This document shows positions 1 to 15,570 of a DNA stretch of 20,868 bases, one piece after another. Below the pieces are notes generated by a model. It ran no database searches. It was given only the letters and a program-made list of their open reading frames with translations, and was not told the DNA's origin. The position numbers and the translations under genes were made by a program. Each line of letters opens with the position of its first letter. Positions within the stretch are counted from its first letter, which is position 1. Source of the DNA: a virus; the IMG/VR virus record IMGVR_UViG_3300027917_002310, positions 1 to 20,868 of that record; one strand, written 5' to 3'.

Positions 1-621
1 GCTTGGAGTCGGGCTTGGAGAAGGAGAAGGAGAAGGAGAAGGAGAAGGAGAAGGAGAAGGAGAAGGACTCGGACGAGGACAGGCTTCACTCGACTTGAAG
101 GCATCCCTCACGACCTCGACACATTCACGCATCGAGCCAGGGCCCCAGCAGTCGTCAACCTGCAGCGAGCCACACCGAGGGATCGTGACCCAGTACGAGA
201 CGAGGGCCGTTTCTCCAGGACCAATTCGATTCGGCCCGGCCATCTGTGGATCGCCAGTGACCGTTTCCTGAGTAGCACAAGTGAGGTCGTCGTCCGTGTA
301 CGCTGCCAGCCGAGAGTAGATCTCCACCTTCCGGTTGTTGGTGATCCGGAATCTCCGCTGCCCACCCTGAAGGTGACACCCACCATCACCCCACTCGTCG
401 AAGACGATCTCGACCAGAGCCCCGTTCGACTCCCAGTGCCTTCCCCTTGGTGTAGCAGGCTGGGCAGGAGTCGTGGTCACGGCCACTCCCTCGTCTCCCG
501 CTTCCTCGAAGGAGAGTTGAGGGCTCGACGGAGTTTCGTTACAGCTCACTGTGCATAGCGCCAGTCCAGTAACGATCACCAGCGCGTAGAACAGCACTAC
601 GTCCTTCACCCTGTTCGACAT
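1..621 (-). CDS. Putative phage lipoprotein with Pro-Ser repeat tail (partial, runs off left edge)
   Basis: The frame starts at ATG 621 and stays open to position 1, giving 207 residues with no stop, so the gene is incomplete here. Its ATG overlaps the stop of the upstream gene (TGATG), which implies translational coupling. Residues 1-26 are a charged start plus a hydrophobic stretch ending TVSC at Cys27, a non-ideal lipobox (Thr rather than Leu/Val/Ile at -3). Either a lipoprotein or a simple Sec/membrane anchor is possible. Residues 60-180 form a compact domain with six cysteines (81, 115, 150, 158, 167, 181). From residue 184 it becomes a Pro-Ser dipeptide repeat coded by a hexanucleotide tandem repeat. 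It follows the lysis-type block; Rz1-type outer-membrane spanins are also Pro-rich lipoproteins, but they are much shorter, so that role is only a guess. Family not recognised. Confidence 0.75.
   Translation of the reverse strand, partial: MSNRVKDVVLFYALVIVTGLALCTVSCNETPSSPQLSFEEAGDEGVAVTTTPAQPATPRGRHWESNGALVEIVFDEWGDGGCHLQGGQRRFRITNNRKVEIYSRLAAYTDDDLTCATQETVTGDPQMAGPNRIGPGETALVSYWVTIPRCGSLQVDDCWGPGSMRECVEVVRDAFKSSEACPRPSPSPSPSPSPSPSPSPSPSPTPS
17..66. repeat. Hexanucleotide tandem repeat (AAGGAG)n coding Pro-Ser
   Basis: About 8.3 uninterrupted copies of AAGGAG lie on the plus strand (CTCCTT on the coding strand). Read in the frame of the overlapping minus-strand gene they give CCT TCT codons, a Pro-Ser dipeptide repeat that continues as degenerate Pro-Ser/Thr codons to the window edge. 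A 6-bp unit keeps the frame, so copy-number changes would lengthen or shorten a linker without breaking the protein. Confidence 0.95.
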
Positions 622-1085
622 CACACCCACCCTTGACTCATGTTGCTGAGCGCATCGTACTGCTCATCCACGCTCGGCCAACCACCAGCCGACACTGGAG
701 AGAACCTGTCCTTGTAAGGATCGCGGGACCACCGCGAGTATTTGGCCAGCACTCGCCGAGGATCCTGCCCCTGCATCAGCCCCCGTAGCCTGCGATCGAG
801 CGAATCATCACCACCGAACCGCTGCATGAGCACGTCGTTGAAGTAGTTCTGGAACTCGTTCGTCCTCGTCCCCTCGACCGGCCTACGCACACTGGACCGG
901 GCACCGACGGCTCCCCCGGCAGCGTCCCGGAACCTGCCCCTCCTGCCTCCAGTCACGCCACCAGTCCGAACGGAATGCTGGTAAGCCCCCATCGTCGAGC
1001 GAGGATCCCTTGCCCCTCCCCACCTGGAGGCCCGAGCACCACCCTGTGCTACTTGATGAGAGATGCTGCTGGATCTTGGTTCCAT
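621..1085 (-). CDS. Hypothetical phage protein, Arg/Gly-rich N-terminus
   Basis: A 154-residue protein from ATG 1085, which lies just after the stop of a 32-codon ORF. Its TGA overlaps the ATG of the next gene (TGATG). Residues 1-75 are low-complexity and rich in Arg, Gly and Ser (net basic, probably disordered). Residues 76-154 look folded, with an aromatic segment (EFQNYFNDVLMQRF) followed by charged helices. There is no signal peptide or membrane segment. The ribosome-binding site is weak, so expression probably depends on coupling. No family recognised. A basic, disordered N-terminus would fit nucleic-acid binding or a virion protein, but nothing decides between them. Confidence 0.6.
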   Translation of the reverse strand: MEPRSSSISHQVAQGGARASRWGGARDPRSTMGAYQHSVRTGGVTGGRRGRFRDAAGGAVGARSSVRRPVEGTRTNEFQNYFNDVLMQRFGGDDSLDRRLRGLMQGQDPRRVLAKYSRWSRDPYKDRFSPVSAGGWPSVDEQYDALSNMSQGWV

Positions 1086-1200: not shown

Positions 1201-1761
1201 TCACGCCACCGCTCCCGTAAGGCTTCCGATTGCGCTGAGTATCCCATACACTACTCCCCCTGCAATGCTAAGGAGGATGGTATAACCAAAACAGGCTTGG
1301 AAGTGCATTGGATCCTTCGTCCTGAAGTCCCCGCCCCACTTCCAGCCCTCGTCCTCGAACGGCTTGATGATCTCCAACGGCATGTCGCCATCGGTACCAA
1401 GCTGGTTCGTCGCGGCATTCAGGTCGATGGCGATCCCCCACGCATGGGTAGAGAGCTTGTGGCCTCGACGCTTTGCCCTCCAGTTGTACGTCCCGTCGAA
1501 GGTGGCGATCTTGTTCCAGTCACCGTTCCGGGAGATCGTGTCCAGGATCTTGCCCAGTGAGCTGAGCAGACGGTAGTGGATCCTGATCCTACGGACGGTA
1601 ACAGAGTGGTCCCACCCGAGCGGCAACGGAGCCGGCAGCTCCAGGATGCCCTGGGTGTGGTGCTCCCAGTTGGGATGAACTGTCCCATCCTCGCGGATGT
1701 ACGACTCCGGGTCGCCGAAGGTCTTTCGGATCTCGGCCAGTCCTGTAGGAACGATAATCAC
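1201..1761 (-). CDS. M15-family peptidase endolysin with C-terminal hydrophobic segment
   Basis: A 186-residue protein from GTG 1761, whose start overlaps the previous stop (GTGA). The core matches the Peptidase_M15_4 / VanY-like pattern: STHAWGIAIDLN gives zinc ligands His106 and Asp113, and WKWGGDF followed by DPMHFQ gives the third ligand His153 with Asp150 as likely catalytic acid/base. Such enzymes cut D-Ala-D-Ala or L-Ala-D-Glu type bonds in peptidoglycan stems and act as phage endolysins. Length up to about residue 156 is normal for the family. Residues 157-186 are an added hydrophobic, glycine-rich stretch (about 160-178 could span a membrane), which is unusual for a soluble endolysin. 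It sits directly after a holin/spanin-like gene, which supports a lysis role. The enzyme class is fairly sure; the exact bond cut is not. Confidence 0.85.
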   Translation of the reverse strand: MIIVPTGLAEIRKTFGDPESYIREDGTVHPNWEHHTQGILELPAPLPLGWDHSVTVRRIRIHYRLLSSLGKILDTISRNGDWNKIATFDGTYNWRAKRRGHKLSTHAWGIAIDLNAATNQLGTDGDMPLEIIKPFEDEGWKWGGDFRTKDPMHFQACFGYTILLSIAGGVVYGILSAIGSLTGAVA

Positions 1762-2108
1762 CTGCCGTTCCTCCGGAGCAGCATCTCGACCCCTGCCAGC
1801 CTCTCCCGGATGTCTTCCATTCGAGCATGCTGCTCGTCTTCCTTTTCGACATGCCCCTTGATCATGGTGAACATCAGCTCGAACCGCTCGCTAGACACTG
1901 CATACGCAATGTCGTTCTTGTTCAGCCGAGCCTCGATGTTGGCGATGCAACCGTCCTGTCTTTTCTCGTGAACCTCCATGGCCTTGAACTCCCGAACCAC
2001 GAACCACTTCAAGGACGCCCACAGCCACGTCAACACCCCTTGGATGGTGAGAATCACCACGGCAGTCAAACCAGGGTGGTCAGAGATGAGGCTGTTGAGG
2101 TCGCTCAC
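1758..2108 (-). CDS. Membrane-anchored coiled-coil protein, holin- or i-spanin-like
   Basis: A 116-residue protein from GTG 2108, overlapping the previous stop by GTGA; its own stop overlaps the endolysin start in the same way. It has one hydrophobic segment at about residues 14-37 (Trp-rich end, TWLWASLKWF) followed by a long charged helical tail with heptad-like spacing up to the basic end RRNGR. One N-terminal membrane anchor plus a coiled coil is the plan of inner-membrane spanins (Rz) and of some small phage holin-associated proteins. Position immediately before the M15 endolysin supports a lysis function. No specific family is recognised, so holin versus spanin is left open. Confidence 0.65.
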   Translation of the reverse strand: MSDLNSLISDHPGLTAVVILTIQGVLTWLWASLKWFVVREFKAMEVHEKRQDGCIANIEARLNKNDIAYAVSSERFELMFTMIKGHVEKEDEQHARMEDIRERLAGVEMLLRRNGR

Positions 2109-2437
2109 AGTCTAGTCCTGATCTGGTAGGCGTTCCACGTTGCGAACGCCGACCACAGCACGATACAGGTGATTGCGAAGATGCGGGCATGGGTCTTGTT
2201 CTTCGCTTTCATGTCCGCGTAGAGATAGATGAATGCAGCCGTCGAGACTGTCTTCAGCACCAGCCGAGCCACCTGATCCTGCATCAGCGGGTTCAGCTCT
2301 CGGGCCCCCAACGACAGTCCGTACTCGGTCGTGGCCAGGTCTGCTGCCCCAGCAGTCCCCATCCCAATGCCGAGCCAATCAGCCGGAGCAGCTGGCGTTG
2401 CTACCAGCAGGCTGAGCGTAATGGCAAACCCTTTCAC
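2105..2437 (-). CDS. Small membrane protein, DUF5658-like
   Basis: A 110-residue protein from GTG 2437, with GGAG about ten bases upstream overlapping the previous gene's end. It shows an N-terminal hydrophobic segment (3-19, possibly a cleavable signal ending APA), the pattern ADLATTEYGLSLGARELNPL at residues 32-51, and two further membrane segments at about 56-75 and 84-103. The D-x3-TT...G...E-NPL pattern is that of DUF5658-type membrane proteins, whose function is unknown. Location at the head of the lysis block makes it a possible holin (several membrane spans, small size), but that is inference from context only. Confidence 0.6.
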   Translation of the reverse strand: MKGFAITLSLLVATPAAPADWLGIGMGTAGAADLATTEYGLSLGARELNPLMQDQVARLVLKTVSTAAFIYLYADMKAKNKTHARIFAITCIVLWSAFATWNAYQIRTRL

Positions 2438-2442
2438 TACGT

Positions 2443-2940
2443 TCAGTCTCCTACTACCGCCCAGTCAGTGTCGGGGGCTGGGCCAAACAGCCCCCTCGCC
2501 TTCTCGTAGATCACCCCGTCGTACTGGATCCGATAGGCGACCTGAACCCCCTCACCGTAGGCGTTCTTGAAGGTGTTGGTTCGTAGCTGCACCGGGCTCG
2601 TTCCAGGCACGTCCACCCCTGAGAGCACCCAGGTGTCTCGGGTGTCGTCGTAGCAGTTCCCGCAGACGCTCTGCACGAATGGGCCCGGATCGTCGTTGGT
2701 CACCGTCGCCAGCGCCGAGTCGCTCGGGTCCGTGTTCGGCAGCGTCGTGCTGCTCCACGTCGGGTGACACAGTCTCAGCGGATTGCCCGCTACACATGCC
2801 TCGAAGTCGGAGGTCAGGCTGGCCTCCATCGTGTCCATCCAGGCATCGGCTTCGGCCTGCGCCTCGGTCAAGGTGATCTGTGCGCTGGCCACCCCACCAT
2901 GGAAGAGCAGCATGGTCAGGATCATCAGCAGCTTCTTCAT
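2443..2940 (-). CDS. Secreted hypothetical protein, Sec signal peptide, four Cys
   Basis: The start is ATG 2940, chosen because it follows GAGAGGTGA and opens a textbook signal peptide: MKK, a hydrophobic core, then VASA before Gln21. The frame extends upstream but that part is inside the LamG gene and has non-coding character. The mature part is about 145 residues with cysteines at 49, 58, 93 and 96, including a CGNC pair (93-96) that recalls redox or metal-binding CxxC motifs. The rest (QLRTNTFKNAYGEGVQVAYR) looks like beta-structure. No family recognised. It lies 14 bases after the triple LamG gene and is the last of five consecutive signal-peptide genes. Confidence 0.7.
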   Translation of the reverse strand: MKKLLMILTMLLFHGGVASAQITLTEAQAEADAWMDTMEASLTSDFEACVAGNPLRLCHPTWSSTTLPNTDPSDSALATVTNDDPGPFVQSVCGNCYDDTRDTWVLSGVDVPGTSPVQLRTNTFKNAYGEGVQVAYRIQYDGVIYEKARGLFGPAPDTDWAVVGD

Positions 2941-2954
2941 CGGCTCACCTCTCG

Positions 2955-5072
2955 TCACTGAAAGAACCCAACGCCCAGATTCCAGAGGGCGTCGATCTCG
3001 CCTGGAACCGGTGGGCGGTTCCACTGAGTGAAGTGATCGAGAACCCCACGGAACGTAGACGTACTGGTGTGACTGATGTTGAGATTGTGCCCGGCCGTCT
3101 GAGGCACGTAGACAAATGAGCTGGCAGTCTGGGCCGACAGCTGCTCGTCTGCATCGTAGTAGGCGATGTACCCGTAGCCCGTAGCCGGATCCCAATAGCA
3201 GTTCATGAAGACCCACTCGTCCTGAGGGAAGGTGCTGAAGGCAACCGTTGCCAAGATGGAGACAGCACCGTCGTAGAAGGTACAGGATGCAGTAGTAGTA
3301 GTCAGGCGGCCTGCATCTCCCGTGTTCCCCCACAGCTGACTCCAGAAATAGTCGGTGCTGCTGGCAGTGTCCTGAATCCCCCACACAGATCGCCAGAACC
3401 CCGACGTCGCACTCCCGCGAACGCCGTCTGCAGCAACGGTCAAGTAGGAGCCATCAGCAGAAAAGTAGACCCCCATCCCACTATCCGGCAGCTCCACCAG
3501 CCCTGCGGCCTGGGTGGGGGTGCTGACTCCGGTCAGGTCGTTGGAGCCCCAAGAGTCTACGTAGGGGCCACCGTTCTCGGTCATGTTCCAGCAAGAGACG
3601 CCATTGGAGCCACGAAGGCCAGCAGCTTCGGCCTGCTCACACGTCATGCCCTTGCCGGAGTTGGAGAGGGCGGCAACAAGAGTATCGAACGGAAGATCAG
3701 TTCCCCGAATCAACAGAGACGGACCCAGGTCTCCAGTGAACCCACTAGATCCATCTGGTGCAGCTGCTACGCCAAAGCTCTCCGAAGTGTCACGCACAGA
3801 CATCGACCCAAGAGGAGACAGGTCCCACGAGAAAGAAGCTCCATCTACTGACACTCCAGCTGCACCAGCCGACGTGTCTACCGCACCACACGCAAATATC
3901 CGCGTGGTGCTGTCAGTGAACAACGGAGCAGAAAGGATGTGTGTGGAGCTGCCGACGGTGTCGTATGCGTACACAGCCAGTCTCTCAGAGCTGTCGAAGT
4001 ACATTCTCCACTCAGGAGCAACGTCAGCCTTGGCCATCATGTACATCGAGGCGTTCAGCAGGGTTGGTACACTCCAAGAGCAGAACAACATGTCGTCGGA
4101 GGACCCGCTGAGTGAAGCAGTGTCCGAAGCAGTAGCATACGAACTACCTCTGATGAAGTGCGCTGCATACCCCCGCGCCCCACCTTTCGCAGTGGGCGTG
4201 TTCACGGGGGTGAGGTCGAAGGCATCTCCATAGGAGACAAGGGGGGCTGTCGCCTCCAGCTCTCCTGTGATCGTCCCAGCCGCCCCTGAGATCGAGTCCC
4301 TGATCCCCCAGGACGAGAGGTCCATCGACCAGCAGGCAGTGGCAGTCGTGTTCTCCTCGACCCACTGACAGTCACGCCCAGCTCCCGAGTTGTACAGGTC
4401 AGATGCCGGCGGCTCGCCGTCGATGAAGAAGATGAGCTGGTCTATGATTCCAGCAAGGTCTGGACCGACGAGGTTGGACCCGATGAGGAGCGGCTCAGAG
4501 GTGTTCGACACGTCGTAGTCCATGTCGTCGGCATCCGAGGTGTAGGCAGCCCCATTGATGGAGATTCGCGCCTTCTTGAGAGGGTCGTAGAAGTAGCCAC
4601 AGACAAAGGTCTTGGCATCCGGTGTGAAAGCAGCACTCACCGAGGTCGAGGTATCCCCAACCAATCCCTCGGAGAAGTAGACAGTGACTACATTCGTCTC
4701 CGTGTGAATGTACAGCTCGCTATTGGTAAAGCCACCCTTGTAGAGGAGGACTTCGTCGTTCCCTACATCATCCATCCACAGGCAGGCTGCCAGCCCCTTG
4801 CCATTGGAGTGATCGAAGGCTGCCTGATCCGGCACGGAGACGAAGTCGCCCGAAGAGAACGTCGCCGACTCTGCCCGGTTGGTGTACGCCGAATCCCACC
4901 CCAAGTTGTCAGGGTCGTCGAACCTGTATTGGGCAACCATCCCCGTGAAGTAACCCGGCAGGAGAGCCGTGGCCATGTCCACTGATGCTTCGTCGTCTGG
5001 AGCCTCATAGACAGGGCTCTGAGCCCACGCCGGGAGCCCGAAGAGCACGAGAGCAGCCAGCAGCCTCTTCAT
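2955..5072 (-). CDS. Secreted triple LamG/concanavalin-like domain protein (putative receptor-binding or adhesin protein)
   Basis: A 705-residue protein from ATG 5072, with GGAG six bases upstream. Residues 1-17 are a signal peptide (MKRLLAALVLFGLPAWA) before Gln18. Three LamG/ConA-like beta-sandwich units follow at about 45-230, 245-473 and 495-705. Each closes with a related motif: LYNSGAGRDC (226-235), LSNSGKGMTC (469-478) and LWNLGVGF (696-703). Between units there are matching linkers (CWSMD...DS, CWNMTE...DSWG). Each unit has its own cysteine pair (97/158, 331/395, 597/625). LamG folds usually bind glycans or proteins; in phages they occur in tail-fibre and adhesin-type proteins. Its place in the fibre region suggests host-surface binding, but a signal peptide is not expected for a virion protein assembled in the cytoplasm. 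Confidence 0.8.
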   Translation of the reverse strand: MKRLLAALVLFGLPAWAQSPVYEAPDDEASVDMATALLPGYFTGMVAQYRFDDPDNLGWDSAYTNRAESATFSSGDFVSVPDQAAFDHSNGKGLAACLWMDDVGNDEVLLYKGGFTNSELYIHTETNVVTVYFSEGLVGDTSTSVSAAFTPDAKTFVCGYFYDPLKKARISINGAAYTSDADDMDYDVSNTSEPLLIGSNLVGPDLAGIIDQLIFFIDGEPPASDLYNSGAGRDCQWVEENTTATACWSMDLSSWGIRDSISGAAGTITGELEATAPLVSYGDAFDLTPVNTPTAKGGARGYAAHFIRGSSYATASDTASLSGSSDDMLFCSWSVPTLLNASMYMMAKADVAPEWRMYFDSSERLAVYAYDTVGSSTHILSAPLFTDSTTRIFACGAVDTSAGAAGVSVDGASFSWDLSPLGSMSVRDTSESFGVAAAPDGSSGFTGDLGPSLLIRGTDLPFDTLVAALSNSGKGMTCEQAEAAGLRGSNGVSCWNMTENGGPYVDSWGSNDLTGVSTPTQAAGLVELPDSGMGVYFSADGSYLTVAADGVRGSATSGFWRSVWGIQDTASSTDYFWSQLWGNTGDAGRLTTTTASCTFYDGAVSILATVAFSTFPQDEWVFMNCYWDPATGYGYIAYYDADEQLSAQTASSFVYVPQTAGHNLNISHTSTSTFRGVLDHFTQWNRPPVPGEIDALWNLGVGFFQ

Positions 5073-5075
5073 CTT

Positions 5076-5567
5076 CTACTCCACGTACACAGTGCGCTGA
5101 GCAGTCGGTGCCTGCTCCAACTTCCAGTGCCAGTTCAGGACCGTAGGCGAGCTGAGGGAACAAGGGACGTTGGCCTCGAAGGTCACCTCATTGGTTCCGG
5201 TCGTGAAGTTGACGTCACCCGACTCGTAGTACCCGGCACTTCCCTGATCGGAGTAGTCGCTCCCACTGTCCACGTAGCACCCAAGAGATCCGGAGTCGTT
5301 GTAGCAGGAGATGTAGTAGTCAGTCGTGAGGATGCGGAGGTCGGTGGCGTTGACACACTCGGTCGTGGTGAACAGTCTCCCCCCGAGGAAGCTCCCAGAC
5401 GGAATCTCCACCCGCATGAACGCCGTGTCGACCGACTCCGTCACCGCCTTGACGCCGGAAGCGATGGCCGCTGCTCCTGGGCCTGAAGGCGGCGGGAACG
5501 TCTGAGCCAGGGTCAGAGCGACCCAGACCACACTGAATGCCGTCAGCCCGACGAGTAGGTTCTTCAT
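5076..5567 (-). CDS. Secreted hypothetical protein, Sec signal peptide, four Cys
   Basis: The start is ATG 5567, overlapping the TGA of the fibre gene (ATGA); the frame is open further upstream but that would run inside the fibre gene. It has 163 residues. A hydrophobic signal (MKNLLVGLTAFSVVWVALTL) ends in Ala before Gln22. The next stretch, 23-60, is Pro- and Ala-rich and may be a stalk or helix. The domain at 60-163 is rich in Tyr, Ser, Gly and Asp with cysteines at 71, 88, 97 and 136, probably beta-sheet. No ribosome-binding site is obvious, so translation probably depends on coupling to the fibre gene. A fibre-associated tip or chaperone-like partner would fit the position; the family is not recognised. 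Confidence 0.7.
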   Translation of the reverse strand: MKNLLVGLTAFSVVWVALTLAQTFPPPSGPGAAAIASGVKAVTESVDTAFMRVEIPSGSFLGGRLFTTTECVNATDLRILTTDYYISCYNDSGSLGCYVDSGSDYSDQGSAGYYESGDVNFTTGTNEVTFEANVPCSLSSPTVLNWHWKLEQAPTAQRTVYVE

Positions 5568-8140
5568 GGGATCGTTGCCAGCGCGTACCAGGCATAGGTG
5601 TCCGAGGAGTTCTTCGCACACACCTCGAAGGTGTCCGCCACCCCCGCCCCACCCTCGTCTCGCCACAGCACGCCGCGAGTAGTGGCGTCACAAGTCGGCT
5701 TCGTACCAGAGTCGGCCACCACCGGCCCCTGTGGCTTGATGATGAGCCGGTTTGCTCCCGTCTGCTGTGTCGTGCCAGATCCCAGCACTGTTCCAGTGCG
5801 GAGATAGATCCAGCCCGGAGCGCCAGCGCCTGTCCCGCGACCACCTTGGATGACGACTGCTCCTCCGTCGTAGTCGGTATTCCCTTCCGCAGAATCGACG
5901 CCCATCCAGAGTGATTGTGCTGGCGTCGAGTAACCGTTGACGTCGACCCCACCAAGCTGGGTGTAGCCTTGGGCCCCGTGAGCAAAGAAGGCGTTCTGTA
6001 GGGTGTTGAGACTGGAACCCGAAGCTGCTCCCCCAGGGGCGATGTCAATAGAAACACTCCCTCCTGCTGCCGTACCAGTCCCTATCCCAGAGCGAATGTA
6101 GGTTCCCGTCGAGGACGTGTCGGTTCCAGTGGCCCGCTTCCCCTGAAGGACGATGTGGTCCGACGAATCCCAGAGTCCAGCCGTAGTGTTGTCCGCGAAC
6201 GAGTAGGCCGGGAGCGTCGCGCTGCCGTCCAGGGCCAGAAGGGGAACGGTCGTGGTGACGTCAGTCTCGGTGATGGTCATTCGGGTGGTCTCCGACTGGG
6301 CGGTGCCCCCAGAACCAAGCGTGCTGCCAGTACGAAACCGAATCACCCCAGGAGCGCCCGCACCCGTTCCGAGGCCCCCTCTCATTTCCAGGGTCCCACC
6401 ATCGCCGTCGGTGACTCCGCTGTAGATGTCCGTTCCCCGAATGTGGACAGCCCCAGCCGAACCTCCGACATTCAGTCCACCCACGATGATCTGCCCAGAA
6501 GATCCGTAAGCCCAGAAGGCAGCCTGAGAAGTGTTCACCGTGCTCCCACTCGTCGTCGACGCGGGATAGACGTAGAGCCTGACGTCTCCACCGCCGCCGG
6601 TCCCGGTCCCAGCTCCACCATGGATCACTGCCGCAGCAGTCGAGGACTGATCCGTCCCGCTCTCGGTCCTTGCCGTCATACCCGCTGCGCCATTCGCCCC
6701 AGCGTAGGTCCCAACAGTAGGATTCGCCGAGAAGGAGTACGACGGAGCAGTCCTAACCCCATCTGGAGCAAGCAGGGGAATCGTATTGGTGATTGCTGCT
6801 TCTCCAACTGTCATTCTGGTAGTAGCAGTCTGCTGAGTAGAACCGCTCCCAAGAGTTGTTCCAGTCTGAAATTGGATCGTTCCGGGCGTCCCAGCACCTG
6901 TTCCAAAACCGCCCTGAAGGTTCAGATTCCCACCATCGCCGTCGGTGACTCCGGCTGGGGTCGCATTGCCGATGATCTCAACATCGGCTGGAGCACCAGA
7001 GCCGATCTCAAGCCCACCCAGTCGGATGTTCCCGGGTCCACCGTCGGCATAAAGCACGTTCTGGGCGCTGTTCTGTGAGGAGCCTGAGACAGTCCCAGCT
7101 GGCGCTACTTGGAGCCGCAGCGTGCCACCAGCTCCAGTGCCTGTCCCCACGCCTGGACGGATGTACAGAAGCCCCCCGCCCTCATCGGTCGTTGCCGTAG
7201 AAGCATCGACGCCCGCAAAGGTAGTCGTCCCAATGTTGGAGTTGGAATCAAGTCCCCCCAGAGTCAGCGCCCCACTCAGGCCGTTCACACTCAACACTGT
7301 CTGGAGAGTGTTCGACGTGCTGCCAGAGCTGGCAGCTGGCAGGGCGACCTCCATCGACAGAAACCCCCCGCCCCCAGTGCCGGTCCCAACCCCACCCTTG
7401 ATGTAGGTTCCCGTTGCCGCCTGATCAGTCCCGGTCATCCTCTGACCCTGGAGGACGATATGCCCTGAGTTGTTGCGAATGCCTGTAGTTGGATACCCAG
7501 CAAAACTGTATGAGGGCGCGTCTACGCTCCCACCTGGAGCAAGCAGCGGCCAGAACACGCCCGAGCCTGGGAAGTAGTCGTTCGCCGAGATGAGCGCCAC
7601 CCGGTAGGACTGAAGAGTCACATCACCAAGCGCGGTGGCCGTGGTGCCAAAGAACTCGACGTCGATGCCAGAACTGAACGTGAAGGTGTCCGAGGGGGTC
7701 GGGGTTGGAAACAGCTCGCCCGTCGACTCGTAGGTCTGGGCCGCGCCACACGCGAGCCCGTCCGATGCCGACACGTAGCAGTAGCCGTGGAGAGTCACCA
7801 AGGCTGCGTTGCCCGTGGTCGCCCGAGAGAGGAACCCAACAGAGCCAACATCTACTCCGACCGTCTTCGAGTTGGCGTTTGCTGCCGTCTCGTAGGTTGC
7901 GTGGATCTCGAAGCCAGCAAAGTCGTTGGACCCCCCAAGGGAGTCCGCAGGGATCGTACAGGTTGCCAGGACTTCCTTGATCGTACCAGTCGTCGGGGCG
8001 TTGACTGCCGTTTCGGAGCAGAGGTTGTAGACCCCGCTCGCGTAGGTATCGAGGCCGGTGGTGGTGCCCTCAGGCGGGTAGACGACCTGACTGAACGCCA
8101 GAGCCGGGAGGATGAGCAGAGCGAGCAACAGTCGCTTCAT
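5564..8140 (-). CDS. Secreted repetitive tail-fibre-like protein
   Basis: An 858-residue protein from ATG 8140, with a strong GGGAGGTAA site that overlaps the previous gene's stop. Residues 1-17 are a signal peptide (MKRLLLALLILPALAFS) before Gln18. Residues 45-185 resemble the jelly-roll-like domain common in phage fibres (IPADSLGG...AANANSKTVGVDVG). Residues 198-803 are Gly/Thr-rich repeats: PLLAP-type starts at 198, 455 and 633, and GDGG...GTGAG.PG...LGSG blocks at 399, 577 and 755. The end (PTCDATTRGVLW...FEVCAKNSSDTYAWYAL) is a small C-terminal domain seen in fibres and collagen-like proteins, with a likely Cys817-Cys841 pair. Trimeric beta-rich fibre structure and host recognition are inferred. 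The signal peptide is the odd element. Confidence 0.8.
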   Translation of the reverse strand: MKRLLLALLILPALAFSQVVYPPEGTTTGLDTYASGVYNLCSETAVNAPTTGTIKEVLATCTIPADSLGGSNDFAGFEIHATYETAANANSKTVGVDVGSVGFLSRATTGNAALVTLHGYCYVSASDGLACGAAQTYESTGELFPTPTPSDTFTFSSGIDVEFFGTTATALGDVTLQSYRVALISANDYFPGSGVFWPLLAPGGSVDAPSYSFAGYPTTGIRNNSGHIVLQGQRMTGTDQAATGTYIKGGVGTGTGGGGFLSMEVALPAASSGSTSNTLQTVLSVNGLSGALTLGGLDSNSNIGTTTFAGVDASTATTDEGGGLLYIRPGVGTGTGAGGTLRLQVAPAGTVSGSSQNSAQNVLYADGGPGNIRLGGLEIGSGAPADVEIIGNATPAGVTDGDGGNLNLQGGFGTGAGTPGTIQFQTGTTLGSGSTQQTATTRMTVGEAAITNTIPLLAPDGVRTAPSYSFSANPTVGTYAGANGAAGMTARTESGTDQSSTAAAVIHGGAGTGTGGGGDVRLYVYPASTTSGSTVNTSQAAFWAYGSSGQIIVGGLNVGGSAGAVHIRGTDIYSGVTDGDGGTLEMRGGLGTGAGAPGVIRFRTGSTLGSGGTAQSETTRMTITETDVTTTVPLLALDGSATLPAYSFADNTTAGLWDSSDHIVLQGKRATGTDTSSTGTYIRSGIGTGTAAGGSVSIDIAPGGAASGSSLNTLQNAFFAHGAQGYTQLGGVDVNGYSTPAQSLWMGVDSAEGNTDYDGGAVVIQGGRGTGAGAPGWIYLRTGTVLGSGTTQQTGANRLIIKPQGPVVADSGTKPTCDATTRGVLWRDEGGAGVADTFEVCAKNSSDTYAWYALATIP
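5732..7549 (-). repeat. Internal repeat array of the fibre gene
   Basis: Within the fibre gene, a Gly-rich unit (GTGTGGGG-type followed by SGS..NT.Q) occurs four times, near residues 250, 331, 510 and 686. A second unit (TDGDGG-type to TRMT) occurs three times, near 399, 577 and 755. At DNA level a 26-bp stretch is identical at 6394-6419 and 6928-6953, 534 bp apart, which equals the 178-residue protein period. This shows recent duplication or gene conversion inside the fibre. Confidence 0.85.
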
Positions 8141-8143
8141 GGG

Positions 8144-8878
8144 TTACCTCCCGAGTGAAATCGTCGTGGTGATGTTCTCCCGGGTTCCGCCATCGCTCGT
8201 CCCGTAGGCAAGCGAGACCCGGCAAGCACCGAAGACACTGTTGGGGATCTTGTAGGAGATCCCTTGGCCTGGAGTTGAGAACTGACAGACCGTCCCGCTC
8301 AGGACTCCATCACCGCAGTCGGAGCTTGGGCCTGGGTAGACCCTAACAGCACCTGACCCAATGGCGTTCTCCTTGCAGAACATCGCAATGTCGAGCGTTC
8401 CCAGGTCCCCGGCTACGTACAGTACAGTGAGCTGAACAGTGTCCCAGCCGCTGGTGTTGATCCAGCCGTCGTCGACTCCAGTCCCACACCGGAGTTTCTT
8501 GTACCTCCAAGGATGCCCGTCGGAGAGATCGATGGCTGACTCCACCGTGACCTGATCTGCGCTCGCCTTCGCTGTGACGACCCTCAGATGGTTCACTCCG
8601 GAACTCAGCTGAACCAGGAGCACGTCTCCCACCCCGATGTCGGTGAACACGTCGTCGGCAGCATTCACCCCCGTAACGGTAACGGAGGATCCCGAGGTCT
8701 CGATCTGACCACGTCCCTCGATGAACCCACCGAATGGATCTCCACCCTGACCGTCGAGCACACAGAAGGTAGCAGTGGTCGACGCAACGTCATACGAGTA
8801 GGTGAAGTTCCCCGATCTCTGATCCTGTCCGAAGACAGGCAGAGCCAGCAGTACGAGTCCGACCAAGAACTTCTTCAT
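8144..8878 (-). CDS. Secreted hypothetical beta-sandwich protein, Sec signal peptide, six Cys
   Basis: The start is ATG 8878, after GGGAGAGGGAG, eleven bases beyond the stop of the adaptor gene. The frame is open upstream, but that part overlaps the adaptor gene and lacks coding character. The protein has 244 residues. Residues 1-17 are a signal peptide (MKKFLVGLVLLALPVFG) before Gln18. The mature part is beta-rich with six cysteines. Its second half (GWINTSGWDTVQLTVLY ... GACRVSLAYGTSDGG) has the strand pattern of small beta-sandwich virion proteins often found beside phage fibres. Function is not recognised. It opens the five-gene signal-peptide series and lies between the neck adaptor and the fibre, so a fibre-base or surface role is plausible. 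Confidence 0.7.
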   Translation of the reverse strand: MKKFLVGLVLLALPVFGQDQRSGNFTYSYDVASTTATFCVLDGQGGDPFGGFIEGRGQIETSGSSVTVTGVNAADDVFTDIGVGDVLLVQLSSGVNHLRVVTAKASADQVTVESAIDLSDGHPWRYKKLRCGTGVDDGWINTSGWDTVQLTVLYVAGDLGTLDIAMFCKENAIGSGAVRVYPGPSSDCGDGVLSGTVCQFSTPGQGISYKIPNSVFGACRVSLAYGTSDGGTRENITTTISLGR

Positions 8879-8888: not shown

Positions 8889-9581
8889 CTACCACATGCC
8901 CCCGACAGCCTGAGGCATCTGGAGCACCTTCGATGCGTTGACGTAGTACTCCTGCTCCAACTTCGACAGCAGCAGTTGATACTCCACGTCCCAGTGTGGG
9001 ACGGGGTCACCCTTGGCGTGCTGCATCTTCGCAGCTGCTCCAAGGTAGAGCACAGCGTGGAACGCCAGTGGGAAGCGTATGTCCTGAGCAGACCCGAGGG
9101 TGATCTTCGGTGCCGACTTCTCGTAGAGCAGCTTGAATGCCCCATAGCCAGCCGAGTCGTTGGGAATCCACAGCAGCCGATCATTCTCGGCGTAGGACGT
9201 GCTCAGCAAGCCAACAGCAAACATCTGCTCGTTCTGGTAGCGCCCTGTCGCCCGCATGACTGCCATGGACTGGATGTCGACTTCCTCCCAGGGTCCATAG
9301 CTGTCCTGGGTGTTCCATAGCAGTCCGTTCGGCCCGATGTTCGCCAAGTCGTCAGGCACCGAAGCGAACCCACTAGTGAAGGAGAAGGTGTTAGTCCCCG
9401 TGGGATGGAGCTGGAACTTGAAGTTCCAGGGCCGGTGAGACCACAGCAGGTCACTGGCCCTCTGGATGAAGTTCTGGACGCGAGTTACACGAGCTGCCGG
9501 GATCGAGAAGAGATCCGTGTCCGTCTCATCGAAGTTGGTCAGTAGGGTGTTGGCCAGATCGTCGACAGACGTGAACTGCAT
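8889..9581 (-). CDS. Putative head-to-tail adaptor / neck protein
   Basis: A 230-residue protein from ATG 9581, with AAGGAG eight bases upstream. The N-terminal helical part (VTRVQNFIQRASDLLWSHRP, then WNF) matches the pattern of head-completion or tail-tubular proteins of short-tailed phages (T7 gp11-like or P22 gp4-like), where N-terminal helices with a Trp-Arg-Pro-Trp segment dock on the portal. The middle is beta-rich, and residues 170-215 form helices (FPLAFHAVLYLGAAAKM). Its place after the capsid genes and before the fibre genes fits a connector that closes the portal and joins the tail. It has no cysteine and no signal peptide, unlike the genes after it. The assignment rests on pattern and position, not a firm family match. 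Confidence 0.6.
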   Translation of the reverse strand: MQFTSVDDLANTLLTNFDETDTDLFSIPAARVTRVQNFIQRASDLLWSHRPWNFKFQLHPTGTNTFSFTSGFASVPDDLANIGPNGLLWNTQDSYGPWEEVDIQSMAVMRATGRYQNEQMFAVGLLSTSYAENDRLLWIPNDSAGYGAFKLLYEKSAPKITLGSAQDIRFPLAFHAVLYLGAAAKMQHAKGDPVPHWDVEYQLLLSKLEQEYYVNASKVLQMPQAVGGMW

Positions 9582-9586
9582 CGGAG

Positions 9587-10372
9587 TTACTCCTTGTCAG
9601 GCAGGTGCCCGACCTTGCGGATCCTCCACTTGGCCTGCTTCGTCAGGTGCTTCCGGATGGCTGGGTCGTCGAGAAGCTGCTCGGCCAGCTCCTTCTTGTC
9701 GATCTCCTTGCCCTTGGCAGCCTTCTCGGCCATCTCCATGGCTACCGCCTTCACCTCGGCGAAGAGGTCAGCCTCGGACTCCTCGATGATCTCCTCGTCG
9801 TGCTGCACAGCCCCACCGAGCCGCTCGTTCCTCTTCTGGAGGATGATGAGGGCTCGCTGGTACGACACCCCCGGCGGTGCTGGGGTGATCCCGGCCTTCT
9901 TCGACACCTCGATCTTGGTCTGCTCGGCCGCGATCTCGGCTTCGGCCCACGCCACGACATGATCCGCGAACCTGCGCTCGGCATCCTGCTTTACCGCCTC
10001 GAAGGTGTCCCGGTCGACGACCGGAGGGAGGAAGGTGATCCCTCGACTCGTCCAAGCCGAGTTCGCCTTCCCGCTGGTCACGTCAATGCCCAGCATGTTG
10101 CGGATTGCGTCTGCCGCCTTCCAGTTGTAGGACGACCCCGGCCCGGGAATCCCGTACTCGGAGGTGGTGTACTGGTCCTGCATCACGTAGGTTCCAGGAA
10201 CGGGCTCACCAGTGTCGAACAGACACGGACGCTGAGACAGATCCTTGCAGCCCGGAAGTCGCATGGACTTGCCGCCCCACTCCAGATCGACCCACTCCTC
10301 GGACGGGTTGTACAAGCCGTACTTCTCCGGTTCGGGGAAGAAGTTCGGCAGCTTTGCTGCATTCGTCGCCAT
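9587..10372 (-). CDS. Hypothetical phage structural-region protein with coiled-coil C-terminus
   Basis: I place the start at ATG 10372 (MATNAAKL), with GGAGAG five bases upstream. The frame could be extended to ATG 10444, but that would overlap the previous gene and lacks a good binding site. It has 261 residues. The N-terminal half carries aromatic and Pro/Gly-rich segments (NFFPEPEKYGLYNPSEEWVD, then SMRLPGCKDL). Residues 120-160 and 180-250 are charged helices, highly Ala/Glu/Lys-rich, ending in a basic tail. No family recognised. The next gene is the neck adaptor, so it may be a virion or assembly protein. Confidence 0.65.
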   Translation of the reverse strand: MATNAAKLPNFFPEPEKYGLYNPSEEWVDLEWGGKSMRLPGCKDLSQRPCLFDTGEPVPGTYVMQDQYTTSEYGIPGPGSSYNWKAADAIRNMLGIDVTSGKANSAWTSRGITFLPPVVDRDTFEAVKQDAERRFADHVVAWAEAEIAAEQTKIEVSKKAGITPAPPGVSYQRALIILQKRNERLGGAVQHDEEIIEESEADLFAEVKAVAMEMAEKAAKGKEIDKKELAEQLLDDPAIRKHLTKQAKWRIRKVGHLPDKE

Positions 10373-10383
10373 CGTCTCTCCTC

Positions 10384-10400
10384 TAGGGGGTAGTCCCCTA
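10384..10400 (-). other. GC-rich hairpin at gene junction
   Basis: On the coding strand TAGGGG-ACTAC-CCCCTA forms a perfect 6-bp stem with a 5-base loop. It overlaps the stop codon of the upstream gene (10400-10398) and ends just before the GGAGAG site of the next gene. There is no T-run, so a simple rho-independent terminator is unlikely; mRNA processing or stabilisation, or control of the next start, is more plausible. Confidence 0.55.
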
Positions 10401-11123
10401 TCGTCGATCTCCGACACTCCGCATGTACTCGCCGATCTCGACATCCGAGATGGACTCGATCACCTTGTCCGCGTACCGGTGGAACTCACGGCTCCGGTAG
10501 TCCATCTCGTCGGCGTTGTCACGCTTCCTCTTCTCATGCGCCTCTCGGGGGCGCGTGATGAGCACGTCTCTCAGATGATCTGCGTACTCCTTGTCCGTCA
10601 TCCGGAACCCACGAGCAGCGTCCTCGGCCTTCAGAAGGAGGCTGTGATCGAATGGGAGGTACTTTCCCGGCAGATCGACATACCAGCCTTCTTCGTCCCT
10701 TGGACCCTCGTGGATGAACCAGATTCGGTTCGGCTTCTTGAACGTCAATCCCTGACACGGCATGTCCGGCATCGTCACCCGAAGGGGTTCGATGTCCGAT
10801 TCCATCCGGTCGACGACCCTACCCAGAGCATGCCGTCCGTAGACGACATCGTGTGGGTTCTCGTGGTCCTGCGGAGTCCGGAACACCCACCGCACCCACA
10901 GAGGCACGGCATCCGGAGCGAAGACCTGGATGGCCTTCATGATGTTGGAGTCCCACGGGTACATCGAGTCAGGGATGCAGGTGTACTCGACCGCAACTTC
11001 CCGGTAGCCGGGAGCGGTGTGGAACGAGTCGGACGGTGTGATGGGAAGCGCAGGACCCGTGTCCTGCACGACAGGCTTCACCGAATCAGGGATGAGCCCC
11101 GCGCTCCACTCAGCAAGTTCCAC
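10398..11123 (-). CDS. Hypothetical phage protein
   Basis: A 241-residue protein starting at GTG 11123; AGGAGG five bases upstream makes this start convincing. Residues 35-110 have an aromatic, probably beta-rich character (YREVAVEYTCIPDSMYPW, then LWVRWVFRTPQ). Residues 110-165 continue with Pro/Trp segments (PNRIWFIHEGPRDEEGWYVD), and residues 170-241 are charged helices with many Arg/Asp/Glu residues. There are two cysteines and no signal or membrane segment. It lies between two probable virion proteins in the head block. No family recognised; virion or assembly role by position only. Confidence 0.65.
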   Translation of the reverse strand: MELAEWSAGLIPDSVKPVVQDTGPALPITPSDSFHTAPGYREVAVEYTCIPDSMYPWDSNIMKAIQVFAPDAVPLWVRWVFRTPQDHENPHDVVYGRHALGRVVDRMESDIEPLRVTMPDMPCQGLTFKKPNRIWFIHEGPRDEEGWYVDLPGKYLPFDHSLLLKAEDAARGFRMTDKEYADHLRDVLITRPREAHEKRKRDNADEMDYRSREFHRYADKVIESISDVEIGEYMRSVGDRR

Positions 11124-11131
11124 GGAACCTC

Positions 11132-11956
11132 CTAGAAGAGGTACTGGTCGTCGAAGTCCCGCAGGAACCCGGCCTCGATCTCTGATGCGAACAGCCGGCA
11201 GGCATCCCCTCCCTGGAGGAAGTGGATGAATCCGGTGAGCACCTCCGCACTGTCGAACACGAAGGTGTCGGGACCGACTCGGACGCCATCGACGTAGAAG
11301 CGGACCTTGCCCGCATTCGACACGCCGGGGTACCCGATTCCCACGACGACCTTCAGCTCCTTCTCCTCACCATCGCCCCACGTCAGGCCGGTGTCGACCG
11401 TGTCGGTGGTCCCGTTGTTCAGGATGGTCTCGACGTTGATGGTGCCTGCCTGCACGTTGAGACAGGCCAACTCGTCGTAGTCGTCGATGGCGGCCTGGAA
11501 GGCTTCCACCTTGCGAACTCCGAGGGCACACTCGGCCGCACCCGACACGTCCTCGATGGTGAGCTTCGCCCTCACCATGAATGGAGCCGAGGTGCCGACG
11601 ACGTGGTTGAGCCGCGCTCCCGCCGCGAGGAAGGAGTTGATCACGTACTCCACGCCCTCGGCGTTCGCTTCGTCCAGCCCGATGTCCAGCTTGGCCTCGG
11701 CGGAGTCCATCACCGGACCGAGCAGGGTCTGCGACCCGGCCATCCGATAGAGGACGTCACCGTAGGGAGTGCAGAGCCGACCGTTGTTCCCGTCGCCTGC
11801 CGTTGGGAAGGCGTAGGGTGCCGGACCCAGCACCGGGTAGTTGACGTTGCACGGGTGGTAGAAGTACCCGCAGTCCTTCAGGGACGACGCCAGCTTGTTT
11901 GGGGAGATCTGTCCGTCTGCGATCTGCCGCCGATGAATCCCGACTTCGCCTGCCAT
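11132..11956 (-). CDS. Putative virion (head decoration/fibre-like) beta-rich protein
   Basis: A 274-residue protein from ATG 11956, with GAAGGAGAG upstream. It starts MAGEVGIHRRQIADGQISPN, a short polar N-terminal arm of the kind seen in phage fibre and decoration proteins. The rest is beta-rich. Near residues 220-232 the segment KVRFYVDGVRVG resembles the strand-turn signature of LamG/ConA-like sandwiches. Its neighbour upstream is the major capsid protein (69 bases away), the classical place for a capsid decoration or head-fibre gene. It has no signal peptide, which contrasts with the beta-rich proteins after 8889. The role is inferred from place and fold pattern. Confidence 0.6.
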   Translation of the reverse strand: MAGEVGIHRRQIADGQISPNKLASSLKDCGYFYHPCNVNYPVLGPAPYAFPTAGDGNNGRLCTPYGDVLYRMAGSQTLLGPVMDSAEAKLDIGLDEANAEGVEYVINSFLAAGARLNHVVGTSAPFMVRAKLTIEDVSGAAECALGVRKVEAFQAAIDDYDELACLNVQAGTINVETILNNGTTDTVDTGLTWGDGEEKELKVVVGIGYPGVSNAGKVRFYVDGVRVGPDTFVFDSAEVLTGFIHFLQGGDACRLFASEIEAGFLRDFDDQYLF

Positions 11957-11972
11957 CTCGTCTCTCCTTCAT

Positions 11973-12010
11973 CCCCGTTAGGGGAGGGTGCCGAGGGGAG
12001 TCTCCTCCCC
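11973..12010 (-). other. Two hairpins after the major capsid gene
   Basis: On the coding strand GGGGAG-GAGA-CTCCCC (12010-11995) is a perfect 6-bp stem with a GNRA-type tetraloop, 16 bases after the capsid stop. It is followed by CCCC-TAAC-GGGG (11984-11973), a weaker 4-bp stem just before the next gene's binding site. Neither has a T-run. A partial terminator or an RNase-resistant 3' end for the capsid mRNA would fit the need for high capsid expression. Confidence 0.5.
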
Positions 12011-12025
12011 CCGGCTGGCCATGAG

Positions 12026-13327
12026 TTACACGTCGCCGAGAGCGGGATCCTTGAGGTCACGGATGACCGCATTCGCGCAGGGCATCACGTTCCCGATGTT
12101 CTCCATCGAGGCCATGAAGGCGTCCCAGCGGAACCGGTACGAGCTGTTGTTCGCGCCGATGGCGAGGTGGAGCATGGACCCTTCGTCGATCCACGCCATC
12201 TCCTGCGACACCCACCGGAAGAAGGTGTCCCACGAGAGCAGGAACAGCTCACGCGGGATGATGTCGAAGGACATGTTGATGCGCAGCGCCACGCCGGGAG
12301 CGTAGTGAACCAGCTCGCCCTCCGACTTGTAGCCGGTGGACTTGTCGTAGCTCCCGCCCTCGACGGCCCGCCGACGCTCGGGGGCCACGAACTGGATGTA
12401 CTTCTCGATCTGGCCCGGACCGGTCCAGATGTCGCTGACGCGCTTCCCGCAGCCCTCCCGAACGGTGTGGCAGGTACGGATGAGCAGCTGCTCGGTCAGG
12501 TCACGGAGGGAGCCCCCGTTGGAGTCCACGACCGACTTCAGCTTCTCGTTGCCCACCGCCGTCCGGTCGAGACCGTGGATGGTGGTCTTGTGGGTGCCGT
12601 CGTCGATGAGCCCTCGCAGGCACTCGGCGAAGACGTCGGTGAGCGCGTAGTTCGCGGCCAGCCCGACGACCACGTAGATGAGGTCGTCCGCCACCGCGTT
12701 GGTGTAGGTCGGGGTGCCGGTCACCGTGAAGGTGCGGGTCTGGGGGTTGACCGACGCCACGCGAACTGCGTCCAGCGTGCTGCGGGCAGAGGTCGGAGTG
12801 CCGCTGTCACGGACGGAGATCTTCATCCCCTGCCGGACGAGCTTCATCCCGATGGGCTCCTTGATGACGATACCGCCCGCACCGGACGACTCGACGTAGC
12901 CCCGGATCCCGTCGACCGTCGAGACGAGAGTGGACTCGATGTACTTCCCGAGGTTGGAGACGGTCTCCTCGGTGCGCCGACGCACCTCGCCGCCGTTCCA
13001 GGCCGACTTGTTGGTGTTGGCCGCCTTGCGGGTCAGCCCACCGATGTTCATCGTCCCGGTGAAGATGGAGGGCTTCAGGGTGAACTGCACCTCGGACCGC
13101 TCCGCAGCGTCCTGCAGGTCGCCACCGTCGACGATCTGCCCGACGTTCTGGGGCAGCGCGAGCACGCCGTTGTACTTCACGTCGCCTTCGGAGACGCGAG
13201 AACCGGCAGGGATTGCCGTCTTGACCTTGGCACGGAACGGAGCCTCCTCGTTGAGCATGGGCTCCAGCGCCTTGGTCGGGTACAGCACCTTGAGGGCGTA
13301 CCCGAGATTGGGGAACTCACCAGCCAT
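12026..13327 (-). CDS. Major capsid protein (HK97-fold type)
   Basis: A 433-residue protein from ATG 13327, with GAGGA eight bases upstream. It directly follows the scaffold-like gene, the standard order for a major capsid protein. Residues 1-100 contain the extended N-arm and early strands (VSEGDVKYNGVLALPQNVG). A long helix with RRRTEETVSNLGKYIESTLV (116-135) fits the spine helix. Residues about 160-222 look like a small beta-barrel insertion (MKISVRDSG ... VADDLIYVVV), as in several long capsid proteins. The end FRWDAFMASMENIGNVMPCANAV is typical of capsid C-termini. The length is within the usual 300-450 range. The subfamily is not identified. Confidence 0.8.
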   Translation of the reverse strand: MAGEFPNLGYALKVLYPTKALEPMLNEEAPFRAKVKTAIPAGSRVSEGDVKYNGVLALPQNVGQIVDGGDLQDAAERSEVQFTLKPSIFTGTMNIGGLTRKAANTNKSAWNGGEVRRRTEETVSNLGKYIESTLVSTVDGIRGYVESSGAGGIVIKEPIGMKLVRQGMKISVRDSGTPTSARSTLDAVRVASVNPQTRTFTVTGTPTYTNAVADDLIYVVVGLAANYALTDVFAECLRGLIDDGTHKTTIHGLDRTAVGNEKLKSVVDSNGGSLRDLTEQLLIRTCHTVREGCGKRVSDIWTGPGQIEKYIQFVAPERRRAVEGGSYDKSTGYKSEGELVHYAPGVALRINMSFDIIPRELFLLSWDTFFRWVSQEMAWIDEGSMLHLAIGANNSSYRFRWDAFMASMENIGNVMPCANAVIRDLKDPALGDV

Positions 13328-13348
13328 TTTCGGATCCTCTTTCGAGGG

Positions 13349-14482
13349 CTACGGCATCAGCTCCTCAGCTCGCTTGCGAGCGTAGTCAGCTGACCACGCA
13401 CCCTCCTTGCCCTTCACCTCCGGAGCACTGAGGCTGGTACCACGACTTCGAGTCTTCCCTCCTGCTGCGTCGTTGCGTGCCTTGCCAGTTTTCTGGAACC
13501 TCGACTTCAGCTCCATCGCCTCCGCGTACTCCTCCATCAGCTCAGCAACCGCCTCGTCGATGGGGATGCCTGGCGCACCCTTTGGAAGGGAGCGCAAGAA
13601 CCCCTGGATGCGGTCCTTGATGCTCTGATGGAGCGTGCGGAAGAGAAGTCCATCTGTCGGGATCCCGTACTTCTTGGCTTCGGCTTCGACGGAGTCGGTG
13701 AACTCCTGCTTCGTGGCCTCAGCCCTCTCCGAACGGCTCTTGGCGTCTTGTCTCTCCTGTTGCAGCCGCTCCTTGGCATTGTCCTCGGACGACCTGAAGT
13801 TCTTCGCTGCCTGTCGCAGCTCTCGTTCCAGCCTCACCTTCTCTGGCTTCGAGAGGTTCCAGTTGCGAAGCACCTCCTTGAGGTCGGACTGAGCTTCCCG
13901 GAGGTCGTCCTTGATGTCGTCTCTGTCCTCAGGAGGAGCTGACTCCAGCTTGCCCCTGAGGAACTCAACCTGCTTCTGCAGCTTGCCGTGCTCGGCAATG
14001 ATCTGCATCTGCTCCTGTTGGATTTCCTTGTATGCCTTGTCGGCTGCCTGAAGTTCGTCTGCCGCTTCCTTGACCTCAGCATCCTCTGCGATGACCTCGT
14101 TGAGGTCCGGGTCGGGAACGGTAGTCAGCTTCTCAAGCATCCCCTCCATCGACTGGAGACGCTTGTGCATGTCCGAAAGCGACTTGGACTGCTGCCAGAC
14201 ACCCTCCGCGAGGGCTTCCTCGTCGCCGTCGTACTTCGCCAGAAGCTTGGCGTAGGCACCCTTCTTCCCTTGAGTGGCACCTTCGCCTTCATCCCCTTCC
14301 CCACTGTCGTCCGTCTTCTCGCCGTCGCCTTCCGGGGAAGCGTCCTTCGTTGACTGGGAACCTTCTTCCCCACCGTCGTCAACATCCGGTGGGGCACCTC
14401 CGTCTTCGCCTTCTCCCTCTCCAGTAAGGAGGGACTCGTCCGGCTCGGGAGGATCCGTGTTCGTCTGGGTCTCCAACGTCAT
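13349..14482 (-). CDS. Scaffold-like protein (acidic N-terminus, long coiled coil)
   Basis: A 377-residue protein from ATG 14482, with GAGGT six bases upstream. Residues 1-75 are highly acidic and Gly/Ser-rich (disordered). Residues about 130-260 are a long charged coiled coil (KLQKQVEFLRGKLES and similar). Residues 270-330 are more compact (KYGIPTDGLLFRTLHQSIKD), and the last 45 residues are basic. Acidic start, coiled-coil middle and a basic tail that contacts the capsid protein are the usual plan of phage scaffolding proteins, and the major capsid gene follows 21 bases later. There is no sign of an internal protease domain. The scaffold shapes the procapsid and leaves before packaging. Confidence 0.75.
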   Translation of the reverse strand: MTLETQTNTDPPEPDESLLTGEGEGEDGGAPPDVDDGGEEGSQSTKDASPEGDGEKTDDSGEGDEGEGATQGKKGAYAKLLAKYDGDEEALAEGVWQQSKSLSDMHKRLQSMEGMLEKLTTVPDPDLNEVIAEDAEVKEAADELQAADKAYKEIQQEQMQIIAEHGKLQKQVEFLRGKLESAPPEDRDDIKDDLREAQSDLKEVLRNWNLSKPEKVRLERELRQAAKNFRSSEDNAKERLQQERQDAKSRSERAEATKQEFTDSVEAEAKKYGIPTDGLLFRTLHQSIKDRIQGFLRSLPKGAPGIPIDEAVAELMEEYAEAMELKSRFQKTGKARNDAAGGKTRSRGTSLSAPEVKGKEGAWSADYARKRAEELMP

Positions 14483-14497
14483 CTTGCTACCTCACTT

Positions 14498-14512
14498 CAG
14501 GGGTAGGCCCTG
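14498..14512 (-). other. GC-rich hairpin before scaffold gene
   Basis: On the coding strand CAGGG-CCTAC-CCCTG forms a 5-bp stem with a 5-base loop, in the 42-base gap before the scaffold gene. Its loop shares the CTAC core with the hairpin at 10384-10400. There is no T-run, so a processing or mRNA-stabilising role is more likely than termination. Confidence 0.5.
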
Positions 14513-14524
14513 TGAGTTCTGGCA

Positions 14525-15288: not shown

Positions 15289-15424
15289 TGGTCTTCCTCC
15301 TCCTTGGGAGTCTCTTGAACCGGAGCCCACACTTCTTGCAGACTCCGACGTACTCCTCGGCTTCGACCTCCTCGATCTCTGCGTGTGGGCAGATGATCGG
15401 CCGCTTGTTCTCGTCGAGAGCCAT
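15281..15424 (-). CDS. Small zinc-knuckle-like protein (47 aa)
   Basis: An ATG at 15424 overlaps the stop of the preceding small gene (TAATG), and the TGA lies inside the next gene. It has 47 residues: an acidic middle (EIEEVEAEEYVG), a possible metal site made of Cys12-x-His14 and CKKC (29-32), and a basic end (RFKRLPRRRKTNG). The protein could bind zinc and nucleic acid. Tight overlap on both sides supports a real gene. No family recognised. Confidence 0.6.
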   Translation of the reverse strand: MALDENKRPIICPHAEIEEVEAEEYVGVCKKCGLRFKRLPRRRKTNG

Positions 15425-15561: not shown

Positions 15562-15570
15562 CGAGATCTC

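Follow-up and report, generated by a model that had tools for sequence, protein, structure and literature searches.

Members of an uncultured tailed phage group carry three to seven adjacent late genes whose products, fibre- and lectin-like proteins, bear export signals. In the window analyzed here, the whole 20,868-base stretch of IMG/VR virus record IMGVR_UViG_3300027917_002310, five such genes (A to E) stand in a row, and their products are very probably secreted and disulfide bonded. Comparison of homologues shows the signals to be conserved, specific to the module, and coupled to cysteine pairing. We read them as export signals because of this conservation, the pairing of the cysteines, the splitting of a fibre domain into a protein with its own signal peptide, and a homologue that lacks both the signal peptide and the cysteines. 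The initial annotation had proposed either export to the periplasm or cell surface or an unusual route of fibre attachment during or after lysis; the same evidence supports export well, and the data do not choose between a surface role and post-lysis assembly.

Signal peptides and gene content of the window

All genes read in the window are on the minus strand (Table 1), and Rfam and tRNA searches gave no match. Each of the five proteins begins with MK, followed by an unbroken hydrophobic core and a small-x-small motif at 15 to 21 residues; with a slash at the predicted cut, the N termini are MKKFLVGLVLLALPVFG/QDQ (A), MKRLLLALLILPALAFS/QVV (B), MKNLLVGLTAFSVVWVALTLA/QTF (C), MKRLLAALVLFGLPAWA/QSP (D), and MKKLLMILTMLLFHGGVASA/QIT (E). 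Purine-rich Shine-Dalgarno-like stretches lie upstream of four of the five starts (A, B, D, and E), and the start of C overlaps the stop of B (ATGA), as in translational coupling.

Signal peptides were called with a rule-based scorer using charge, the h-region, and the residues at -3 and -1. The criteria for Sec/signal peptidase I were a short basic n-region, an uncharged hydrophobic core, and small residues at -3 and -1, all within ~15 to 30 residues. The scorer recovered 21 of 22 textbook Escherichia coli signal peptides and was positive for 0.5% of random proteins with the composition of the window; on non-gene open reading frames (ORFs), it was positive at 0/90 first starts and at 6/415 internal start codons. 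In phage T7, it called 3 of 52 proteins, all small membrane or lysis-type proteins, and in the first part of the genome of Cellulophaga phage phi38:1 it called 1 of 56, with none in the structural block. In the window, it called all five of A to E, plus F and the lipoprotein at the window edge, and none of the 11 head/neck genes, which serve as an internal control. The initial annotation's statement that all five genes begin with a signal peptide, and that head and neck genes do not, was borne out, and the five signals are of the classical Sec/signal peptidase I kind behind well-placed starts; among head/neck orthologues in nine relatives, 0 of 71 had a signal peptide, with every nearby start allowed.

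A fold search with A returned weak beta-sandwich matches, with TM-scores mostly below 0.5, too low to name a fold; many of the proteins matched are phage tail or fibre proteins. AlphaFold2 left residues 1 to 21 of A disordered and folded the remainder (pLDDT 82), and the structure prediction for C (confidence 57) was not used. B had no Pfam or PHROG match; it resembles the exported fibre of the relative L017 (E = 3e-8), which matches a PHROG tail fibre at 1e-5. E had no match. The description of D as a triple LamG protein holds only through a relative: Pfam found no Laminin_G_3 (PF13385) match in the window protein itself but three such stretches (E = 3e-25) in the L012 homologue, which is 46% identical to window D over 562 aa.

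Gene F stands at the start of the lysis block and is probably a membrane protein belonging to it, and a short gene lies between the endolysin gene H and the lipoprotein gene at the window edge. In the window, L010, L016, L018, and L078, putative lipoproteins rich in Cys, with linkers rich in Pro/Ser or Pro, are found along with the array or further downstream, past the lysis genes; L012 is also among the relatives with lipoproteins. These lipoproteins are possible outer-membrane anchors.

Table 1. Positions of the features discussed, in the window and in other phage sequences
Sequence	Feature	Position	Strand	ORF start	Description
Window	Gene A	8144..8878	-	8878	244 aa; predicted signal peptide residues 1-17 (8828-8878); beta-rich; 6 Cys in mature part
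Window	Gene B	5564..8140	-	8140	858 aa, repetitive, fibre-like; predicted signal peptide residues 1-17 (8090-8140); 6 Cys in mature part
Window	Gene C	5076..5567	-	5567	163 aa; predicted signal peptide residues 1-21 (5505-5567); 4 Cys in mature part
Window	Gene D	2955..5072	-	5072	705 aa, lectin-like; predicted signal peptide residues 1-17 (5022-5072); 10 Cys in mature part
Window	Gene E	2443..2940	-	2940	165 aa; predicted signal peptide residues 1-20 (2881-2940); 4 Cys in mature part
Window	Gene F	2105..2437	-		110 aa, DUF5658; signal-peptide-like N terminus and more hydrophobic segments
Window	Gene G	1758..2108	-		116 aa, one transmembrane segment; holin-like, judging by its position beside the endolysin
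Window	Gene H	1201..1761	-		M15-type peptidase, endolysin
Window	Putative lipoprotein	1..630	-		Lipobox, Pro/Ser repeats, six further Cys; runs off window edge
Window	Head/neck block	8889..20432	-		TerL, portal, scaffold, major capsid protein (MCP), and neck-region genes, without signal peptides
Window	TerL	18819-20432	-
Window	Portal	15571-18324	-
Window	MCP	12026-13327	-
L010	Putative lipoproteins	9411-10223, 10220-11359
L016	Putative lipoprotein	13997-15133
L018	Putative lipoprotein	3436-5151
L078	Putative lipoprotein	15240-16004
L010	A homologue	3252-4342			In frame with upstream codons
L012	GroES-like ORF	9380-9670
L084	A homologue	7770-8423			No signal peptide
G006	Fibre-like gene	39500-41602			700 aa; no signal peptide
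L066 (MW202444.1)	Sep15/SelM redox domain gene	15948-16193
L066 (MW202444.1)	Fibre-like protein	16398-20159			1254 aa

Conservation and cysteine pairing in related phages

Scans with MCP, TerL, and A yielded a dozen related contigs; L005 and L011, from the TerL scan, proved to be an unrelated phage and were left out. In the nine relatives mentioned above, all 12 orthologues of A to D carry a signal peptide, and further signal-peptide-bearing homologues were found for each of A to E in L078 and for A in L080. Overall, 18 of the 19 homologues of A to E have a signal peptide, the exception being the A homologue of L084. The initial annotation had suggested searching related genomes for a similar run; one relative, L078, has seven genes in the order A, LamG protein, E, B, C, D, and lipoprotein. 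Homologues starting downstream of the hydrophobic stretch, which would have spoken against such signals, were confined to the distant L084, with none in a close relative. Non-homologous neighbours at the same position likewise carry signal peptides, two of them in L009 (VKRFLLLALLVSPLLFG/QD and MRSFVLSVLMLLATTASA/QV), one in L010 (MRRSVLLVLLIAATAIG/QE), two in L002 (MKKTLFLLLLLIPFLGYG/DE and MKKLLLVLALLPVPGWA/QI), two more in L016, and one in L017.

The array behaves as a module placed differently in different genomes, since it is carried both by L012 (A-B-C-D), a phage with a distant MCP, and, as seven genes in a row, by L078. The large contig G006 has A with two exported neighbours and a lipoprotein. 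G008 has a 127-base terminal repeat; G006 was rejected as a complete genome, its end repeat being a chance 20-base match. A GroES-like ORF, read by eye, lies directly upstream of the array in L012. In L010, A is in frame with ~120 upstream codons starting MKAVYSPC, so that the signal peptide would be internal unless translation begins at a GTG or TTG, which leaves the start ambiguous. Searches of INPHARED by tblastn with A, B, D, MCP, portal, and the A homologue of L084 gave no match, and TerL gave only matches of ≤43% identity; no cultured relative was found there. The host search, contig scans of genomes with MCP and A alignments, likewise returned no relative.

Across homologues, the signal peptides vary freely and the mature parts are conserved. 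Between the window and L078, the mature part of C is 85% identical, with different signals and an alignment that begins at residue 21, the cut; E is 79% identical and has a different signal sequence. The cysteine counts of the mature proteins (Table 1) are all even, and compared with the head proteins cysteines are 2.3-fold as frequent (odds ratio, P = 0.001; the count includes the lipoprotein). In A, cysteines are lost only as pairs: C39 and C131 are missing together in L016, L017, L018, and L038, C188 and C198 are both missing in L038, and C168 and C219 are kept throughout the signal-peptide-bearing homologues. Pairwise loss fails for the C domain in L010, and the claim is limited to A. Disulfide bonds by themselves need not imply export, as phage Milano forms them without any signal peptide (PMC10491603).

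The A homologue of L084 (hhalign probability 98%, E = 5e-14) is a natural control for the whole finding. It lacks all six cysteines along with the signal peptide, starts exactly at the mature position, preceded by a stop codon and a ribosome-binding-like site, and is flanked by genes of the neck type and the tail propeller type. C, in turn, is homologous to the C-terminal domain of signal-peptide-bearing fibres in L009 (E = 3e-20) and L010 (E = 1.5e-10). The domain is fused to the fibre in these two phages. In the window, L012, and L078 it is a separate gene that carries a signal peptide itself, which is what one would expect if fibre and domain have to arrive in one compartment.

Gln occupies position +1 after the predicted cut in ~28 of 32 cases (by eye), including 5/5 in the window. 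In Bacteroidetes, Gln follows the signal peptidase I cut in a mean of 71% of substrates (the Q-rule), with a continuum outside the phylum (PMC5837995). The pattern seen here resembles that rule, and other phyla vary. The clear ribosome-binding sites do not point to Bacteroidota in particular, and we do not assign the host to that phylum.

Fibre-like proteins with the YCSDC C-terminal domain, which they share with this group, were surveyed more widely in IMG/VR phages, chosen regardless of their N termini and also read by eye (the scorer wrongly called L041 and overlooked L044 and L063). By eye, ~18 of the 21 proteins whose start could be read carry a signal peptide or an N-terminal membrane segment, and the 1,254-aa fibre-like protein of GenBank phage MW202444 likewise has an N-terminal signal peptide. 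Cultured phage fibres with partly similar middle regions have no signal peptides. Single exported fibre-like proteins are a broader trait of uncultured phages, and the array is its extreme form. The rarity claimed by the initial annotation thus applies to the array, which is the unusual part, and not to single signal-peptide-bearing fibre-like proteins, which are common in IMG/VR phages; in the literature searched, which excluded subscription journals and preprints, no account of such an array was found. A gene for a Sep15/SelM redox domain, a possible thiol-disulfide helper, lies just before the fibre-like gene in MW202444.

Possible sites of action of the exported proteins

The usual assumption is that tailed phages fold their virion proteins in the reducing cytoplasm and build their particles there, which makes export signals on fibre- and lectin-like proteins odd. 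We favour the reading that the exported A to E join virions at lysis, to which we give close to, though below, an even chance, over a role at the envelope or cell surface. A to E would be a module, expressed late, whose products are of the fibre, fibre-tip, and lectin types and are exported via Sec by the infected cell. Host signal peptidase I would cut off the signal peptide, mostly leaving an N-terminal Gln, and in the oxidizing periplasm of a two-membrane host the proteins would fold with disulfide bonds. Our best guess is that they would wait there until the downstream holin and endolysin genes open the cell, and that released particles would then gain them as an outer adhesion apparatus, the head, neck, and tail meanwhile having been assembled in the cytoplasm as usual. 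The signals are established by comparison of homologues, which also gives strong backing to export and disulfide bonding; from them we infer Sec export, signal peptidase I cutting, and oxidative folding in the periplasm. A two-compartment assembly of some tailed phages, in which Sec-exported parts with periplasmic disulfides are added to a cytoplasmic particle at lysis, could well apply but is somewhat more tentative.

Several observations point to attachment to virions at lysis: A directly follows the neck-region gene g11, its L084 homologue lies inside a virion gene block, and it is single-copy in both G006 and G008. The array lies with late genes ahead of the lysis genes, the exported L017 fibre has matches among PHROG tail fibre families, and phage tail and fibre proteins are among the fold matches of A, weak as these are. 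However, INPHARED gave no cultured relative; the nearby lipoproteins suggest an envelope function; and beside its exported fibre-like genes G006 has a separate fibre-like gene without a signal peptide or any cysteine. This gene could be the real tail fibre, and phages of this type may have an ordinary fibre as well.

It is possible, though on balance doubtful, that the exported, disulfide-bonded proteins never join the virion and act instead at the envelope, at the surface, or on lysis debris, through receptor masking, phage exclusion, blocking of readsorption to debris, or cell-cell sticking, perhaps held by the lipoproteins. The signal peptides and cysteine pairs fit such a role, as do the lipoproteins in the window and five relatives and the separate fibre-like gene of G006, and phage-coded exported lipoproteins are known to act in superinfection exclusion (discussed in PMC11437467). 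The position of the array among late virion and lysis genes would be late for exclusion, however, and in L084 the A homologue has no signal peptide and sits among virion genes; moreover, the fibre/LamG set changes fast between relatives, as host-range fibres do. Many phage fibres attach through their N termini, and AlphaFold2 leaves the N-terminal segment of A free, so the hydrophobic N termini might stay uncleaved and anchor the fibres in the inner membrane or, as an attachment peptide, in the particle. We consider this improbable, as the cleavage motif stands directly before the conserved part, usually with Gln at +1, the cysteine pairing fits full export, and an attachment peptide common to these proteins would be expected to keep its sequence, which these segments do not. 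That the hydrophobic starts are vestigial, accidental, or the product of wrong start codons is very improbable: the L084 homologue without the segment and the ambiguous start in L010 would agree with it, but chance accounts for only ~0.5 to 1.4% per start, the segment is kept in all but one of the homologues, and all five starts have ribosome-binding-like sites or ATGA coupling.

Implications and relation to known phage proteins

With a conserved exported array on one side and the cytoplasmic, Cys-free version in L084 on the other, periplasmic maturation versus adhesin coating becomes a testable question: either part of a tailed phage matures in the periplasm, or these phages coat cells or debris with adhesins. 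Receptor-binding proteins of metagenomic phages may be secreted, which would affect annotation, host prediction, and laboratory expression.

The closest precedents appear to be PblB, lambda Lom and Bor, and T5 Llp. Lom, Bor, and Llp are single phage-coded exported proteins, and lom lies in the tail-fibre region of lambda. Like the proteins described here, they are phage coded and carry a signal peptide or a lipoprotein signal, but they are single small membrane proteins or lipoproteins rather than an array of fibres and lectins. PblB, known from streptococcal phage SM1 and with a pneumococcal relative, is a tail-type protein that also acts as an extracellular adhesin, with a signal peptide predicted for the pneumococcal protein (PMC4508584). 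It is a comparable case, but it is a single Gram-positive prophage protein released by lysis, for which no array or cysteine pairing has been described. Phage Milano is a tailed phage with many disulfides in its neck and tail (PMC10491603, PMC10811340) and resembles the predicted cysteine pairing here; its bonds, however, link the subunits of virion proteins of the ordinary kind, the paper reports no export of such proteins, and the word "cytoplasm" is absent from the text (PMC10491603). Tail fibres of the PHROG 28766 and 18345 type, with T7 gp17 comparable in role, are likewise repetitive and encoded with late structural genes. The known fibres of T7 and the partly similar ones of Dinoroseobacter phage R5C, Pseudomonas phage VSW-3, and Bacillus phage Moonbeam lack signal peptides, and the module adds Sec signals and cysteine pairs to this plan. 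The fibre-like proteins of IMG/VR phages and MW202444 with the C terminus YCSDC...NGAWVCN share both the Sec signal and the paired Cys motif; they are mostly encoded by one or two genes and not by a run of five to seven that includes homologues of A, C, D, and E.
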